This document shows, one piece after another, positions 1-10,875 of a stretch of DNA of 25,558 nt. This DNA comes from a virus. Under the pieces are notes generated by a model, which ran no database searches, had not been told where the DNA came from, and saw only the letters and a program-made list of their open reading frames with translations. How positions within the stretch are numbered: the stretch's first letter is position 1; every line of letters starts with the position of its first letter. Position numbers and translations under genes: made by a program. Location: positions 1-25,558 of the IMG/VR virus record IMGVR_UViG_3300027816_000380; one strand, written 5' to 3'.

Positions 1-799
1 CTTCTCGGAAACGCGCGGGTCGCGCCAATCGCCCGCTTTCGGCGTAGGCCATCCCGCCGCTTCCCGGACCGCTACCCCAAACGGGACGCCCGCCCCGTTC
101 CCGTTGACCCCCTTCGCTTTGAGCTTGGCTTGCCGCGCCCGCCATTGCCCCGGATCTTCCCGCGAATTGAAGCCCGATGCCGTCGGCGTCGGCCATCCTG
201 AAACGGCCAGCCCGACTTGCTGTGTCAACGGAACGCCCGTATCCCAAGGCCGCGGCGGCTTCGTCCCGCGCTTCGCGTCCGTCGTCGTCGGCGTGGACCA
301 CCCGGATTGCGCCGAAGAACAGTCGTTGCCGGATATGCGGCGCCCCGACGCCCGCAGCGCACAAATCGGCGGCCCCGACGCCATATCCCAAGTCTTCCAA
401 GTCAAGGCGTACTCCGCCGAGCCACGCCCGGCCATCGCGGCTTGCAACTTGCTCGCCAAAGATCCTTGCAGGGCGGCACTCGCGAATGTGGCTCGCGAAG
501 GTCGGCCATAGGTGCCGGTCGTCGGACGTGCCCTTGCGGCGCCCGGCAATACTGAAAGGCTGGCACGGACAAGAGCCGGTCCAAACTGGACGATGGTCCG
601 GCCATCCCGCGAGACGGAGCGCGAGCGACCATCCGCCGATGCCAGCAAAGAAATGGCATTGCGTATAGCCGCGGAGGTCTTCGGATCGCACGGCCCTGAT
701 ATCGCGAGTGTCAACGTGGCCATAGGGTATTTCGCCCGCTTCAATCAGGTTCCGCAACCATCGCGCGGCGCCGGGGTTGTTTTCGTTGTAGTAGTTCAC
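1..799 (-). CDS. C5 cytosine DNA methyltransferase, phage type (truncated by window edge, apparent frameshift)
   Basis: This is a DNA cytosine-5 methyltransferase that would transfer a methyl group from SAM to cytosine in phage DNA, probably as protection from restriction. From a GTG start (799) the translation begins MNYYNENNPGAARWL. It shows motif I FAGIGG (residues 51-56), the catalytic motif SCPCQPF (Cys79), an ENV-like motif as GEQV (115-118) and RQRLFF (157-162). After about position 330 the first frame loses its G/C third-position bias. A second frame of the minus strand then takes over down to base 1, with repeated W(S/P)TP motifs and NGNGAG, typical of the variable part of these phage enzymes. 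A single-base frameshift or sequencing error therefore lies near 295-335. An in-frame TTG at 820 is an alternative start. The C-terminus is outside the window. It is the last gene seen of the leftward operon, 61 bp after the SSB-like gene. Confidence 0.85.
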   Translation of the reverse strand, partial: MNYYNENNPGAARWLRNLIEAGEIPYGHVDTRDIRAVRSEDLRGYTQCHFFAGIGGWSLALRLAGWPDHRPVWTGSCPCQPFSIAGRRKGTSDDRHLWPTFASHIRECRPARIFGEQVASRDGRAWLGGVRLDLEDLGYGVGAADLCAAGVGAPHIRQRLFFGAIRVVHADDDGREARDEAAAALGYGRSVDTASRAGRFRMADADGIGLQFAGRSGAMAGAASQAQSEGGQRERGGRPVWGSGPGSGGMAYAESGRLARPARFRE

Positions 800-860
800 G
801 GCGTTTCGCTTTGCAGACAATTCGGGCGCGGCGAGTTTCAGCCCGCCGCGCCCGAAGACT

Positions 861-3182: not shown

Positions 3183-3776
3183 TCACTTGGCGGAAGCGGC
3201 TTTCGCCTCCGCAATTGCCTGGACCATGTCGGGCCAAAGCGCGGCGATCTTCGCCGCGGCGTTGTCGCCCGTCGTCACGTCCGACACGGTCTTGAAGCCC
3301 CGCGCGGCGAGAAACGCCGTCCACTTAGCCGGACCTTCCTTCACGCCATGCGCCTTCACAAATTCGAGAACGTGCGGCTTGAATTCGTCGAAATTCTTCG
3401 GGGCGGGCGGAATGCTCGCCGCCATCGCGACCGCCGACGTGTCAGTGACGACCTGGGCGCCCGTCGTCACGGCCGCGGCAGCCGGGGCAGGCTCGGGCGC
3501 CTCGCCGCTGGCGGGCGAGGCATCGGCCTTGCTCGGGCGCCCGCGGCGGCGCTTCGGCTCTGCTTCCGCCGGAACCGCCGGAACCGCCGGAACCTCCGCG
3601 GCGTCGCGCATCGCGTCCAACAGCGCCGGATCGGTCGCGGGGCCGCTCGGGATGGCAGGCGCCGCGACAGTAAGCGACCGGCCGACGCTGGCCAGGAACG
3701 ACTTGAGTTGTGCGGCAAACGCGGCGAAGTCGGCCGGGTCGTCGAATGTTTCGGTGAGGGTAAGTTGAAGCTGCAT
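3183..3776 (-). CDS. hypothetical protein with AT-hook-like motif and Ala/Pro linker (197 aa)
   Basis: The 197-aa protein has three parts. The N-terminus (about 1-65) begins MQLQLTLTETFDDPADFAAFAAQLKS. A low-complexity middle contains VPAVPAVPAEAEPKRRRGRPSKAD, in which KRRRGRPSK is an AT-hook-like basic motif. The C-terminal helical domain (about 120-197) contains PKNFDEFKPHVLEFVKAHG and KIAALWPDMVQAIAEA. The AT-hook points to minor-groove DNA binding. The Ala-Val-Pro repeats are encoded by three perfect tandem copies of CCGCCGGAA (3566-3592). No named family is recognised. It lies downstream of the helicase in the replication block. Confidence 0.7.
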   Translation of the reverse strand: MQLQLTLTETFDDPADFAAFAAQLKSFLASVGRSLTVAAPAIPSGPATDPALLDAMRDAAEVPAVPAVPAEAEPKRRRGRPSKADASPASGEAPEPAPAAAAVTTGAQVVTDTSAVAMAASIPPAPKNFDEFKPHVLEFVKAHGVKEGPAKWTAFLAARGFKTVSDVTTGDNAAAKIAALWPDMVQAIAEAKAASAK

Positions 3777-5660: not shown

Positions 5661-6181
5661 AGCCCGTTTCTCCGTGCGTATTCAGCGATAAGAGTTGCAT
5701 CGGCGCGCCCTTCGCATTGCGCGAGCGTTATTCGCCCGCGTGCGGGCGTGAATTCCCGGGCATGCGCGGGGAACAGATCACACGCGGCCGCCACGTGCCG
5801 CGCCTTGTCGCTGCCGACGCGAAGGGCGGCCGTCCAGCGCTGTGAGCTCGCCCGCACTACGCGGCAGCCAGCGGCTACGAACATCGCGCGGAGCGAGCCC
5901 GCAGTGTCGCCGAATTTGTATTGGCTCGAGCCACCCTGCCCGCGCACGCCCCACGTGTGTTCAATGCAGAAAGTACACGGGCCGAAGCTGGATAAAAATT
6001 GGGCAAGCGCCCAAGTCGCGGCATCGTCGATAACCGATCCGCCGACGGGCGACGCCGAAAGCGGCACGTCGTAGACCGCGAGGCTGCCATCTGGAAACAG
6101 CGCGACTATGGCGCCCGTTGAACCGGGATCGCATCCGATATACACGCGATTTTCAGTTACGGGCGAGGGTGATTCGGCCAT
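5657..6181 (-). CDS. RuvC-like Holliday-junction endonuclease
   Basis: The 174-aa protein belongs to the RuvC-like RNase H-fold nucleases that resolve branched DNA in phage replication and packaging. Acidic residues fit the fold: Asp18 in YIGCDPGSTGAIVAL, Glu74 in FCIEHTWG, and Asp161 in EGRADATLIAEYA. KARHVAAACDLFP matches the usual helix before the last acidic residue. ATG 6181 is used, but no clear Shine-Dalgarno precedes it; the longer frame to 6409 runs through the opposing regulator and is rejected. The start overlaps the start of the plus-strand regulator (CCATGG). The stop overlaps the zinc-ribbon start. Confidence 0.85.
   Translation of the reverse strand: MAESPSPVTENRVYIGCDPGSTGAIVALFPDGSLAVYDVPLSASPVGGSVIDDAATWALAQFLSSFGPCTFCIEHTWGVRGQGGSSQYKFGDTAGSLRAMFVAAGCRVVRASSQRWTAALRVGSDKARHVAAACDLFPAHAREFTPARGRITLAQCEGRADATLIAEYARRNGL
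6118..6144 (+). promoter_or_regulatory. possible promoter for the plus-strand HTH regulator
   Basis: TTGAAC (6118-6123) and TATACA (6139-6144) with a 15-bp spacer lie inside the RuvC coding region. They would start transcription about 30 nt before the regulator ATG, upstream of its GAGGG. The spacer is short, so this is only a candidate. Confidence 0.35.
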
Positions 6182-6821
6182 GGCTAAAAGCGTCAAGATA
6201 AATCGTCGGGATGACGATTTTCGCAATCCTATACCTGATGCCGAATGGTTTCGAAAGCGTATGGATGCGCTCGGCTTGCAGAAAGTCCAGATCGCGCCGC
6301 TTTTCGGCATCAGCCCGAATAAGCTATGGCAAATGCTTGCCGGCCGGCGACGCGTGCAAATCCCGGAAGCACTGTTGTGGGCCGAAGTGCTGAAAGTCCC
6401 GCCGCGCACGCTGTTTGAAAAGCTCGGGATAGATTGGCCAGCGGCAACAGTGCAAGTTGTAGGGCAGATAAAAGCCGACGGGCTGATTTATCCGCTCGAG
6501 GTCGCGGCCGTGGCGCCCGCGCCGGACAGCGCGAGCGGAGACTTAGTTGCGGTCGCGCTTTCGGTGGATCTGCCAGCGCTGGGCTTGCGCGCTGGCGCGC
6601 ATTTCTACTTCGCGCCGACAGACCGGATCGACCAACGCGCGGACGGGCGCCTAAGCGCCGTCGGGCTCGGGGATGCCGGGTCGCGGCCGATCGTCGGGGT
6701 TGCGGAAGCGGCGGGGCTTGGGCGCGTGCGGGTCTCGCCGATCACGGGCGCCCCGCCGATAGAAAGCGCCCAAGCAATCAGCGCGGCGCCGATCACGTGG
6801 ATAAGATCCGATCCAAGCTAG
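6180..6821 (+). CDS. HTH-type transcriptional regulator (phage repressor-like)
   Basis: The 213-aa protein has an N-terminal Cro/CI-like helix-turn-helix: EWFRKRMDALGLQKVQIAPLFGISPNKLWQMLAGRRRV (about residues 21-60). A C-terminal beta-rich part (about 95-190) is placed like the S24/LexA domain of CI repressors, but I cannot see a convincing Ser-Lys autocleavage pair. ATG 6180 is chosen because GAGGG lies about 10 nt upstream; the longer frame from 6108 is antisense to RuvC. It is the only plus-strand gene in this half and converges on an XRE gene, so it probably controls the early region. Target sites are unknown; the arrays at 9.7-10.1 kb are candidates. Confidence 0.75.
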   Translation: MAKSVKINRRDDDFRNPIPDAEWFRKRMDALGLQKVQIAPLFGISPNKLWQMLAGRRRVQIPEALLWAEVLKVPPRTLFEKLGIDWPAATVQVVGQIKADGLIYPLEVAAVAPAPDSASGDLVAVALSVDLPALGLRAGAHFYFAPTDRIDQRADGRLSAVGLGDAGSRPIVGVAEAAGLGRVRVSPITGAPPIESAQAISAAPITWIRSDPS

Positions 6822-8290: not shown

Positions 8291-8332
8291 AAAAAGAAAA
8301 GCCCCGCGGCGGGGAGGCGACGCCGCGGGGCT
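8291..8332 (-). terminator. intrinsic terminator of the 8449-9552 leftward cluster
   Basis: AGCCCCGCGGCG (8300-8311) and CGCCGCGGGGCT (8321-8332) form a perfect 12-bp GC-rich stem with a 9-nt loop. On the minus strand it is followed directly by TTTTCTTTTTC. This is a textbook Rho-independent terminator and shows that the leftward cluster upstream is a separate transcription unit from the genes at 8168 and below. Confidence 0.92.
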
Positions 8333-8448: not shown

Positions 8449-8676
8449 CTAGTGCAGCCATTCGAGCAACGGCCCGACGCCGAATGTTTCACACGGCCGG
8501 CGGCGAAGGTGCGCGGCGTGCTGTTTCATTGCTTCGTCGCGCGTGAATGCAACCGTCTCACGGAGCGGAACCCAATGCGCTGTTTCGTGTTCCGTGCGCG
8601 CGGGCTGCAACACGAAGACAGCCCATCGCTCCGCGCAATGGCCGCCGCTGCACTGTTTCAAGATTGGGTCGGTCAT
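8449..8676 (-). CDS. hypothetical protein (75 aa)
   Basis: From ATG 8676 the product starts MTDPILKQCSGGHCAERWAVF and ends FGVGPLLEWLH. It contains His/Cys residues (CSGGHC) but no recognised domain. A longer frame to 8730 is possible but would overlap the upstream gene by about 40 bp. The Shine-Dalgarno is weak. It is the last gene before the 8291-8332 terminator. Confidence 0.5.
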   Translation of the reverse strand: MTDPILKQCSGGHCAERWAVFVLQPARTEHETAHWVPLRETVAFTRDEAMKQHAAHLRRRPCETFGVGPLLEWLH

Positions 8677-9035
8677 TTCATGCACCGTTTCACGATTGTT
8701 GCACTGTTTCACACTGTTGCGGCGTTGCATGCGTTGCAGGGGCGGCCATTACGCGCTCACCGTCATGCATCGCCGTGACGAATGTTCCGGCGGACAGATC
8801 GGGGCGAAAATGCCAATTCATCGGCGTGGCGCGTCCCCTCAAAATCGCCGCGGTTGCGGCGTTTTCCGGGGAATTCGCGTATACGATCACGTCCGTCGTC
8901 CGCGGCACGTATTCACATAGCCGGACTGTGTACGCGCGGAGCGGAGCGGGCTTGCGCCGGCAGAACCGTTCCACCGCTAATTCGATCAATTTCCCGATCG
9001 CGGGGCGTTGCACTGACGTTTCCTGCACTGTTTCA
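8649..9035. repeat. three exact copies of TGCACTGTTTCA plus variants
   Basis: Exact 12-mers lie at 8649-8660, 8700-8711 and 9024-9035, all in the same orientation. Related forms are TGCACCGTTTCA at about 8681, TGCGCTGTTTCG at about 8577, and GTTTCA or GTTGCA words scattered from 8440 to 9230. The copies overlap translation initiation regions of the leftward genes (9024-9035 covers the GTG start of the 112-aa gene). Confidence 0.8.
8690..9028 (-). CDS. hypothetical protein (112 aa)
   Basis: Starts at GTG 9028 with GAGGATG about 5 nt upstream. The sequence reads as a folded domain: IGKLIELAVERFCRRKPAP, YTVRLCEYVPRTTDVIVYANS, PENAATAAILRG, then FRPDLSAGTFVTAMHDGERV. The TDVIVYANSPENAA segment looks like a strand-turn-helix of a small alpha/beta domain. 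No family is named. It is followed 13 bp later by the 75-aa gene. Confidence 0.6.
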   Translation of the reverse strand: MQETSVQRPAIGKLIELAVERFCRRKPAPLRAYTVRLCEYVPRTTDVIVYANSPENAATAAILRGRATPMNWHFRPDLSAGTFVTAMHDGERVMAAPATHATPQQCETVQQS

Positions 9036-9130
9036 TCCTCGAGCTAGCTGTTTCAGTTCGTGCAACGCGGTTTGCATACGTGCAAGCGTTGCGCAACACG
9101 GAAACCGTAGCGCGAAAATCCAAACAATGC

Positions 9131-9225
9131 GTTTCACCGGGCGAGGCTGTTGCATGCATAAGTTGTTGCTCGCGCAACAGTTCCGGCCCCGCACCGTTGC
9201 ATGCAACAGCCTCGCCCGGTGAAAC
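9131..9225. repeat. 28-bp perfect inverted repeat with internal hairpin
   Basis: The arms 9131-9158 (GTTTCACCGGGCGAGGCTG...) and 9198-9225 (...CAGCCTCGCCCGGTGAAAC) are perfect reverse complements over 28 bp with a 39-nt centre. The centre carries its own stem GTTGC-TCGC-GCAAC (about 9164-9177). The structure begins 3 bp after the TAA of the 107-aa gene on the minus strand, in a 200-bp stretch (9029-9228) where I find no convincing gene. The minus strand past it is only mildly T-rich (ATTGTTTGGATTTTC). Confidence 0.95.
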
Positions 9226-9228
9226 AGT

Positions 9229-9552
9229 TTAGGCGAGGTAGAACCAATCGCGGTGTCCGCTTCGGTGCGTACCGCTCGCGAGCTCGAGGCCCGCCACCAT
9301 TCCCGCGGCGTCACCATTGGCCACGACTTTCGCCTGGTAGCGGGCAGCACGGGCACGGAGCGCGCGTAAGGCCCGTTGGTAGCGGGCGCGATCGGACGCG
9401 GCGAGCGCATCCCGCATCGCCACGGCAAGCGCGTAGACGGTAGCAGCGTCCCGTGCAATTTCGTCGGCGGATAATCGCAACGCGGATGGCTCGCGCGCGA
9501 GTTGTGCGGCGATCCGTGCCGCAGCCGTAGCAACGTCTTCGTCGGCGCGCAT
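9229..9552 (-). CDS. hypothetical Ala/Arg-rich helical protein (107 aa)
   Basis: Begins MRADEDVATAAARIAAQLARE and continues as long amphipathic helix (IARDAATVYALAVAMRDALAASDRARYQRALRALRARAARY), ending HRSGHRDWFYLA. No family is recognised. ATG 9552 is chosen because CGGAG lies 7 nt upstream; upstream ATG 9576 and 9597 lack this. It is the first gene of the leftward cluster, with TTGACG about 65 bp upstream. Confidence 0.65.
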   Translation of the reverse strand: MRADEDVATAAARIAAQLAREPSALRLSADEIARDAATVYALAVAMRDALAASDRARYQRALRALRARAARYQAKVVANGDAAGMVAGLELASGTHRSGHRDWFYLA

Positions 9553-9592
9553 GGCAACTCCGTAATCGGCATGCATCGGGGAACACGTCGAG

Positions 9593-9619
9593 AACATACA
9601 ACCCGACGCGTAACGTCAA
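9593..9619 (-). promoter_or_regulatory. candidate promoter of the 8449-9552 leftward cluster
   Basis: On the minus strand TTGACG (9619-9614) and TATGTT (9598-9593) are separated by 15 bp, or a weaker TGTTCT by 17 bp. The -35 sits in TGCTTGACG, like those at 7354, 11220 and 11386. The spacing is short, so the exact -10 is uncertain. Confidence 0.5.
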
Positions 9620-9747
9620 GCAGGAATATTACTTACAACCGCCGCTTGTGAATATCCGGCTCGAGGTGGCGGGGCCGTAATCTGTCGCATCGCTATTATT
9701 CTTGGTAATTGCATTTCGTGCCGCGCAGCACGAAAGTCACCGCGGCG

Positions 9748-10085
9748 TTCCGCCGGTTCCGAACAACCGGCGGAAGCCCTGTTGGCGGGAGAATCCGTGT
9801 ACCTCGTAAAAATTCAGGTTTACAGTTCCGCCGGTTCCCGCCGGTTCCGCCCGAACCGGCGGAAGCCTTGCAAATCAAGGGGTTAGGTCATAGGGCGTAT
9901 ACATCGGATGTAGGCGGATGCGGTATTCCGTACACGTCCCGCCGGTACCGGCGGAAGTCTAAAAAGCCAATGGAAACAAGCACTTAGAATTTTCCGGGAA
10001 TTTTTCCGCCGGTTCGATCTCCGCCGGTTCCGCCCGAACCGGCGGAAACCCCGTGTTTGCGGGCTTTCCGCCGGTCCGCCGGTTC
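9748..10085. repeat. array of CCGCCGGTTC half-sites, direct and inverted (iteron- or operator-like)
   Basis: In a gene-free region, CCGCCGGTT(C) occurs on the plus strand at 9750-9759, 9828-9837, 9838-9847, 10006-10015, 10021-10030 and 10076-10085, with a shorter CCGCCGGT at 10068-10075. The complement (G/C)AACCGGCGG lies at 9764-9773, 9853-9862 and 10036-10045. The 16-bp palindrome CCGCCGGTACCGGCGG fills 9939-9954 and counts as two facing half-sites. Three pairs face each other with 5-6 nt centres (9748-9775, 9838-9862, 10021-10045). This gives about twelve half-sites in 340 bp. They could be iterons, multiple operators or RNA hairpins. Confidence 0.95.
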
Positions 10086-10290
10086 CGCTCCCCTACGGGG
10101 AGGCTAGCGGCTGCTTAGAGCCAGCCCGCTTAGCGCCGTCCCCCTGCCGTAGGGCGCCGCGCCGAATTTTGCCGGGGAAATTCCGAAATGAATTCCAGAA
10201 TTTATAAAGTTGATCGGCGTGCAGGTTTGAAAGATTTCATTTACTAATCGTCGCCAGCGTCAGTGAGACAACTTCGAAAAGGTTCAGCCC
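10086..10290. other. gene-free leader with AT-richer patch upstream of the GapR-like gene
   Basis: No gene is seen. CTCCCC-TAC-GGGGAG (10088-10102) is a short hairpin. Bases about 10160-10250 are clearly AT-richer than the surroundings (AATTCC repeats, TTTATAAAG, TTTCATTTACTAATC) and could be an unwinding element or promoter, though no good -35/-10 pair with normal spacing is visible. Confidence 0.55.
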
Positions 10291-10875
10291 ATGGCCAAGC
10301 GTTCTTCCGAGCCAGCCCCGCGCAACGTCGGCAATTTCCATATCGATATTCCCGACGACAAGACGGCAGCGGCCCGTTACGTCTATCAGCGCGTGCTGAA
10401 ATTGCAGCACGAACGGCAGCGGGACGGCGAGCACATTCGCGACGCGCTCAAGGCCGCGAAGGAAAAGGGCGCCAACGTCGCCGCGCTCCGTACCGCGGCC
10501 CGGCTCAAGAAAATGAGCCCCGAAAAGCGCGTGAAATGGGAAGAAACGATCACGGCCGCGGCATCGTTCTTCGGCTATCTGCCCCTAACCGTGGCGGATG
10601 AGATGCCGCGCGAAAAGGACATTCCGCACGCCGATGCGCTCGCCGGCGTGGTCGCGTTGCAGCAGGAGCAAAAACGCGCCGGGGAAAAGATCCGTGAGAT
10701 TTTCAAGGCGGCGAAAGACGCGGGCGTCGATGTCGATTCCGTCCGCGTGTTCCTCCGCATGGCGAAGCGCGATCAGACCGAAATTCAAGATTGGTTTGAC
10801 GGGCTCGACATGACCGGCAGCGCGCTTGGGATCTGGTCCGGCGATACGGAATATTTGCAGGCCGACGCCGAATAA
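10291..10875 (+). CDS. two-unit GapR/DUF2312-like nucleoid-associated protein
   Basis: The 194-aa protein contains two similar helical units 85 residues apart. Unit 1 (about 38-97) has LQHERQRDGEHIRDALKAAK then GANVAALRTAARLKKM. Unit 2 (about 123-182) has LQQEQKRAGEKIREIFKAAK then GVDVDSVRVFLRMAKR. The pattern E-x5-I-x2-(A/I)-x2-AK-x2-G-x4-(A/S)(L/V)R resembles GapR (DUF2312), an alphaproteobacterial protein that binds overtwisted DNA ahead of polymerases. GapR is usually one unit of about 80-90 aa that dimerises, so a tandem form is unusual. AAAAGG before ATG supports the start. It lies beside the repeat array and may act in phage replication or transcription. Assignment is by eye. Confidence 0.55.
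   Translation: MAKRSSEPAPRNVGNFHIDIPDDKTAAARYVYQRVLKLQHERQRDGEHIRDALKAAKEKGANVAALRTAARLKKMSPEKRVKWEETITAAASFFGYLPLTVADEMPREKDIPHADALAGVVALQQEQKRAGEKIREIFKAAKDAGVDVDSVRVFLRMAKRDQTEIQDWFDGLDMTGSALGIWSGDTEYLQADAE

Follow-up and report, generated by a model that had tools for sequence, protein, structure and literature searches.

Twelve clustered half-sites in a phage control region: a probable protein-binding array and candidate replication origin

What is the function of a short DNA word that is repeated many times in the gap between two divergent phage genes? We analysed such a locus in an IMG/VR virus record; its stretch of 25,558 bases is referred to here as the window. A preliminary description of this DNA had reported about twelve copies of a 10-bp word in 340 bp, arranged as tandem direct copies (9828-9847), as three facing pairs with 5-6 nt centres and as one continuous palindrome (9939-9954). 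We recovered all of these elements. The array is most likely a cis-acting DNA site, a replication origin being the likeliest kind.

Anatomy and distribution of the half-sites

Within 9750-10085 (336 bp), we found 12 copies of CCGCCGGTTC. Eight are exact (9750+, 9828+, 9838+, 9853-, 10006+, 10021+, 10036- and 10076+), and four carry one mismatch (9764-, 9939+, 9945- and 10068+). All of them fall inside the 693-bp gap (9598-10290) between the divergent genes, and the array, which has the core TTCCGCCGGTTC, extends over 9748-10085. In 300 dinucleotide shuffles of the gap, matches to the word with at most one mismatch numbered 0.22 on average and three at most, against 12 in the actual sequence. 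The best exact 9-mer of the gap occurs 10 times, where the shuffles mostly gave two. Over the entire window, 27 such matches to the word are present against 7.4 expected, and the array accounts for 12 of the 27. The array is real and non-random.

Read from left to right, the array begins with facing pair A (9748-9775), TTCCGCCGGTT-6 nt-AACCGGCGGAA, whose 11-nt arms match at 100% (half-sites 9750 and 9764). The next unit (9826-9864) consists of the half-site at 9828, which has no facing partner, placed in tandem with pair B (9838-9862; half-sites 9838 and 9853, with a 5-nt centre). Palindrome C is continuous over 16 bp (9939-9954; CCGCCGGTACCGGCGG). The following unit (10004-10047) again joins a half-site lacking a facing partner (10006) to a pair, D (10021-10045; half-sites 10021 and 10036), and the array ends with two overlapping direct half-sites on the plus strand, 8 bp apart (10066-10085). 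Units B and D are near-duplicates, loop and flank included: the 30-nt segments that begin at 9838 and 10021 share 97% identity. The centres of the four facing pairs lie at 9762, 9850, 9946 and 10033, at intervals of about 88, 96 and 87 bp. These pairs span 16, 24 or 25 bp, while direct copies follow one another at steps of 8, 10 or 15 bp. Rayleigh tests detected no helical phasing of the array sites (p 0.81 and 0.99; 0.18 for the pair centres).

Four of the 12 half-sites lack a facing partner and still retain the same sequence, which fits a sequence-specific DNA binder better than a hairpin. The variable distances between half-sites would likewise suit a monomer-type binder better than a rigid dimer. 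The array is therefore probably a protein-binding one, in a control region of the phage.

We also asked where else the word is found. It is clustered in this one gap and not scattered in the phage or in its siblings. No stoperator-type dispersal was observed, high-scoring copies being confined to the gap except for look-alikes at 3564-3592, where a small GC-rich repeat containing TTCCGGCGGTTCCG, similar to the array word, lies in a coding region. The repeats of cluster O and cluster A mycobacteriophages (17-bp palindromes; stoperators) also consist of many copies of one short word, but are genome-wide (PMC4351075), whereas the array is confined to one gap. The preliminary description had named a dispersed repeat as the finding that would speak against its reading, and no such dispersal was seen in the phage, the siblings or 385 genomes of one class. 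In those genomes (the class of Methylorubrum, which may not be that of the host), the facing pair occurred in two, once each. A search of the same genomes, run without a positive control, gave no homologue of the leftward gene, and the best portal match (genome G044) differed in gene order. In public genome contigs, the facing pair was found in at least 119 stretches from many phyla, mostly as one hairpin each among the matches listed. We found no similar DNA in phage or plasmid records. The IMG/VR matches to the facing and tandem pairs were the siblings and an unrelated hairpin (contigs L007 and L008), and the densest matches inspected were coding or one-strand repeats.

The unrelated hairpin (L007:1425-1463 and L008:2849-2887) is 38 nt long (GTCGACCGCCGGTTC, a short loop and the reverse complement) and occurs alike in contigs with two different metagenome ids. 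It splits a terminase-like frame just ahead of the Walker A motif (LGG / ENGNQVGKTW), where it disrupts the frame and introduces a stop; a bypass element, a mobile hairpin and an artefact are all conceivable.

Flanking genes and origin-type signals

The preliminary description had placed the array between a leftward gene cluster and the first rightward gene, which agrees with the borders that we assigned. On the left, the gap is bordered by a gene for a 122-aa protein (9229-9597, minus strand), which overlapping frames concealed in the raw list of open reading frames. We took this gene as real because a homologue of 35% identity lies at the matching position of a relative, L015. An AlphaFold model of its product (pLDDT 55.7) was too poor for use. 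On the right, the border is a gene for a GapR-like DNA-binding protein (10291-10875, plus strand; PF10073, E 3.5e-12, in two stretches) that also has a homologue in L015; in both phages the protein apparently consists of two GapR-like halves, as judged from the sequence. GapR recognises overtwisted DNA, and in Caulobacter it has been linked to replication (PMC8510090, PMC7498317). Immediately after the 122-aa gene on its downstream side, at 9131-9225, lies an inverted repeat with perfect 28-bp arms separated by 39 nt, and L015 has a comparable one (2888-2982; 31 nt, 94%).

By PHROGs and Pfam matches, the leftward cluster encodes an exonuclease, an Enc34-type ssDNA-binding protein, an SNF2-type helicase, a RuvC-like resolvase and HTH proteins; terminase, portal, capsid and tail genes lie rightward of the gap. 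An XRE/CI-like HTH regulator (6180-6821, plus strand; HTH_31, E 5.7e-5, below the curated cutoff) is a candidate binder of the half-sites. No initiator family was recognised among the PHROGs and Pfam matches of the window's proteins, the phage record being incomplete and several small genes being without a match. No tRNA genes were found. At the left end of the window (1-850, minus strand), a frame contains TGSCPCQPFS, which is typical of cytosine-C5 DNA methyltransferases, and a methyltransferase gene is also present in the L015 record. The only promoter-like sequence in the gap is TTCACA-16-AATATT before the leftward gene (9625-9652, minus strand), a weak match (one found, 1.3 expected).

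We calculated DNA stability from nearest-neighbour energies. For stretches of 80 and of 100 bp alike, the minimum of the whole window falls at 10177-10284, which starts 92 bp right of the last half-site. The AT-richer patch noted earlier at about 10160-10250 is thus confirmed in a stronger form. This segment is a candidate unwinding element and/or rightward promoter. Gaps are AT-richer than genes, and the promoter of the GapR-like gene is expected at 10177-10284; AT-rich DNA ahead of a gene may be no more than its promoter. In a hand-made gene list, the segment ranks first among the ten gaps of at least 60 bp, so that the coincidence, taken alone, is modest.

A perfect match to the IHF consensus, AATCAAGGGGTTA, lies at 9873-9885 (plus strand), between pairs B and C, and is a candidate IHF site. 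It is the only one in the window, where 0.235 would be expected per window and 0.014 per gap. No DnaA box (TTWTNCACA) occurs in the window. The cumulative GC skew, proposed in the preliminary description as a check, has a broad minimum at 8305, 1.4 kb from the array. This minimum is confounded, since divergent transcription alone could produce it. In a motif scan, LexA, parS, CtrA and DnaA motifs were rejected. The alphaproteobacterial LexA box is GTTC-N7-GTTC; the array has spacings of N5 or N6, and no such box lies within it. The ParB-type 16-bp palindrome of a parS centromere, TGTTNCACGTGAAACA, gave no match.

The relative L015 and a second repeat cluster

We searched for relatives using the GapR-like protein, the first leftward gene, terminase and portal as queries, and obtained identical siblings and one distant relative that shares the gene order. 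Two sibling contigs match the 693-bp gap at every base, so they say nothing about selection and offer no evolutionary test. At the left end, window 1-236 aligns to a sibling contig with 95% identity over 1-198, followed by a gap; the remaining overlap is 99.9% identical. The distant relative, L015, is an IMG/VR record of 33.6 kb with the order RuvC-like, CI-like, 122-aa homologue, GapR-like, small and large terminase. It also encodes a DNA polymerase and a primase-helicase.

In the equivalent gap of L015, we found neither CCGCCGGT nor any comparable repeat. On the far side of its 122-aa homologue, at L015:3269-3622 (354 bp), the words GTTTCA/TGAAAC occur 12 times, and the least stable DNA of the whole record begins at L015:3257-3265, coinciding with this array. 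A repeat array and easily melted DNA thus recur together in both phages. One TGAAAC copy in L015 overlaps the -35 element of a promoter-like minus-strand sequence, ATGAAA-17-TATAAT, and this overlap favours regulation in L015. The window itself has a second repeat cluster, beyond the leftward gene as seen from the array (8486-9225), with nine TGAAAC/GTTTCA words, four of them in the form TGAAACRGTGCA, and therefore with the same core as the L015 array. Ten GTTGCA words were also observed in 8486-9225. Given this second cluster, the L015 array is more likely its counterpart, and the lineage of the window may be alone in having the CCGCCGGTTC array. It seems rather unlikely that one origin or control layout (about 12 half-sites of mixed orientation, the least stable DNA, a position near the GapR-like gene) has been kept while its word turned over completely between the relatives. 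Such turnover is what selection for origin incompatibility or for immunity specificity would cause.

Replication origin and alternative functions

We favour, tentatively, a replication origin with iteron-like sites. Several observations argue for it. Twelve half-sites lie in a single gap where the shuffles averaged 0.22, and the word is clustered there alone in the phage and its siblings. The least stable DNA begins 92 bp from the last site, and the window's single perfect IHF consensus is inside the array. The leftward cluster carries exonuclease, ssDNA-binding, helicase and resolvase genes, to which L015 adds the polymerase and primase-helicase, and in L015 the 12-copy array of another word falls on the least stable part of the 33.6-kb record. 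The layout also matches that of published origins (PMC3349717, PMC5043065). Starting from what was observed (clustered repeats, a match to the IHF consensus, a minimum of stability, and replication and recombination genes nearby), we infer an origin that would work as follows. The half-sites of 10-12 bp would be occupied by an initiator, presumably one that the phage encodes, and IHF would assist folding of the region by bending it at 9873; the resulting strain would open the AT-rich DNA at 10177-10284, where phage replication proteins would load.

The closest published layouts illustrate both the likeness and its limits. In the lambda origin, O binds four 18-bp iterons that adjoin 38 bp of AT-rich DNA (PMC3349717). 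This origin resembles the array in being a phage site with clustered repeats of internal symmetry next to AT-rich DNA, but its iterons lie inside the initiator gene, whereas the array comprises twelve irregular half-sites of 10-12 bp in a gene-free gap. The origins of iteron plasmids (P1, F, RK2, pSC101 and R6K) likewise combine a site array with an AT-rich stretch, several of them with IHF or HU, and their iterons are usually helically phased (PMC5043065). The array, in contrast, is of mixed orientation and unphased, and neither a DnaA box nor a recognisable Rep gene was found. The origin of the PLE satellite of Vibrio cholerae, with RepA_N iterons, shares repeats with inverted sub-repeats in noncoding DNA of a phage-related element (PMC7145576); the PLE iterons, which depend on RepA, converge on a poly-A tract, and we saw neither RepA nor such a tract here. 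The array may thus work like an iteron origin in its layout, by analogy; membership of the iteron-origin family is not established, since phasing and DnaA boxes were tested and found absent and no initiator was recognised.

The same results count against an origin, as do the broad skew minimum at 8305, the position of the L015 array in the neighbouring gap with a TGAAAC core shared with the window's other cluster, and the stability coincidence, which is far weaker when ranked only against other gaps. The earlier proposal of iterons plus an unwinding element is partly supported: the adjacent melting DNA, the IHF consensus and the L015 layout speak for it, and phasing, DnaA box, initiator, skew and the location of the L015 array speak against it.

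An operator array, which the preliminary description had offered as its alternative for the HTH regulator at 6180, is possible, if less probable. The CI-like regulator, or a small HTH protein (6843), would bind the half-sites and control divergent promoters of the leftward early genes and of the rightward GapR and terminase genes. The array does lie midway between divergent genes, and the L015 copy that overlaps a promoter-like -35 suggests that arrays in this lineage can cover promoters. The L015 homologue of the regulator also differs in the recognition-helix region (SPNKLWQM versus APYMVTRM, assigned by eye), paralleling the change of word. However, a rigid XRE-type dimer would not tolerate the variable half-site distances, and the constant spacing of CI/Cro-type operators is not seen among pairs of 16, 24 and 25 bp and four partnerless sites. 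The gap's only promoter-like site is about 100 bp outside the array and no better than chance, and twelve sites are many for a single switch.

The near-duplication of units B and D also raises the possibility of host-derived REP/REPIN-like palindromes, multiplied locally and without a function in the phage. A Chloroflexota contig (L116:4018-5217) has REP-like GC-rich hairpins with the same core beside a Y1 (IS200-like) transposase gene, so that this hairpin type can be a REP element elsewhere. REPINs resemble the array as GC-rich palindromic doublets that form hairpins, but they occur scattered through bacterial genomes in association with a RAYT gene (PMC3116915), and for the array word in the phage we found neither dispersed copies nor a recognisable transposase gene. 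The tandem half-sites also differ from the inverted-doublet layout of REPINs (PMC3116915), and with the pair found only once in each of two of the 385 genomes, and elsewhere mostly as single hairpins among the matches listed from many phyla, we consider this origin of the repeats improbable. A role in packaging (cos/pac) or partition, with terminase or a ParB-like protein as the binder, is quite improbable. The small terminase gene is 1.3 kb downstream of the array, and the cosB site of lambda likewise combines clustered repeats with an IHF site; however, another gap of 375 bp with hairpins directly precedes the small terminase gene and fits better, and no partition gene was detected among the scanned proteins of the window or L015. 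Highly improbable is an RNA element whose hairpins would act in a transcript through the gap, by attenuation or antitermination. The region folds better than its shuffles (z -4.24), but good folding is expected from any set of inverted repeats, and the partnerless third of the units has retained its sequence. Moreover, the array has no T-run terminators, and no Rfam families were found except sub-threshold microRNA matches elsewhere.

If the array is an operator, it would belong to ordinary phage biology. If it is an origin, it would provide a compact start site for an uncultured phage group carrying a GapR-like gene, and the comparison with L015 would show the pace at which an origin or operator word changes.
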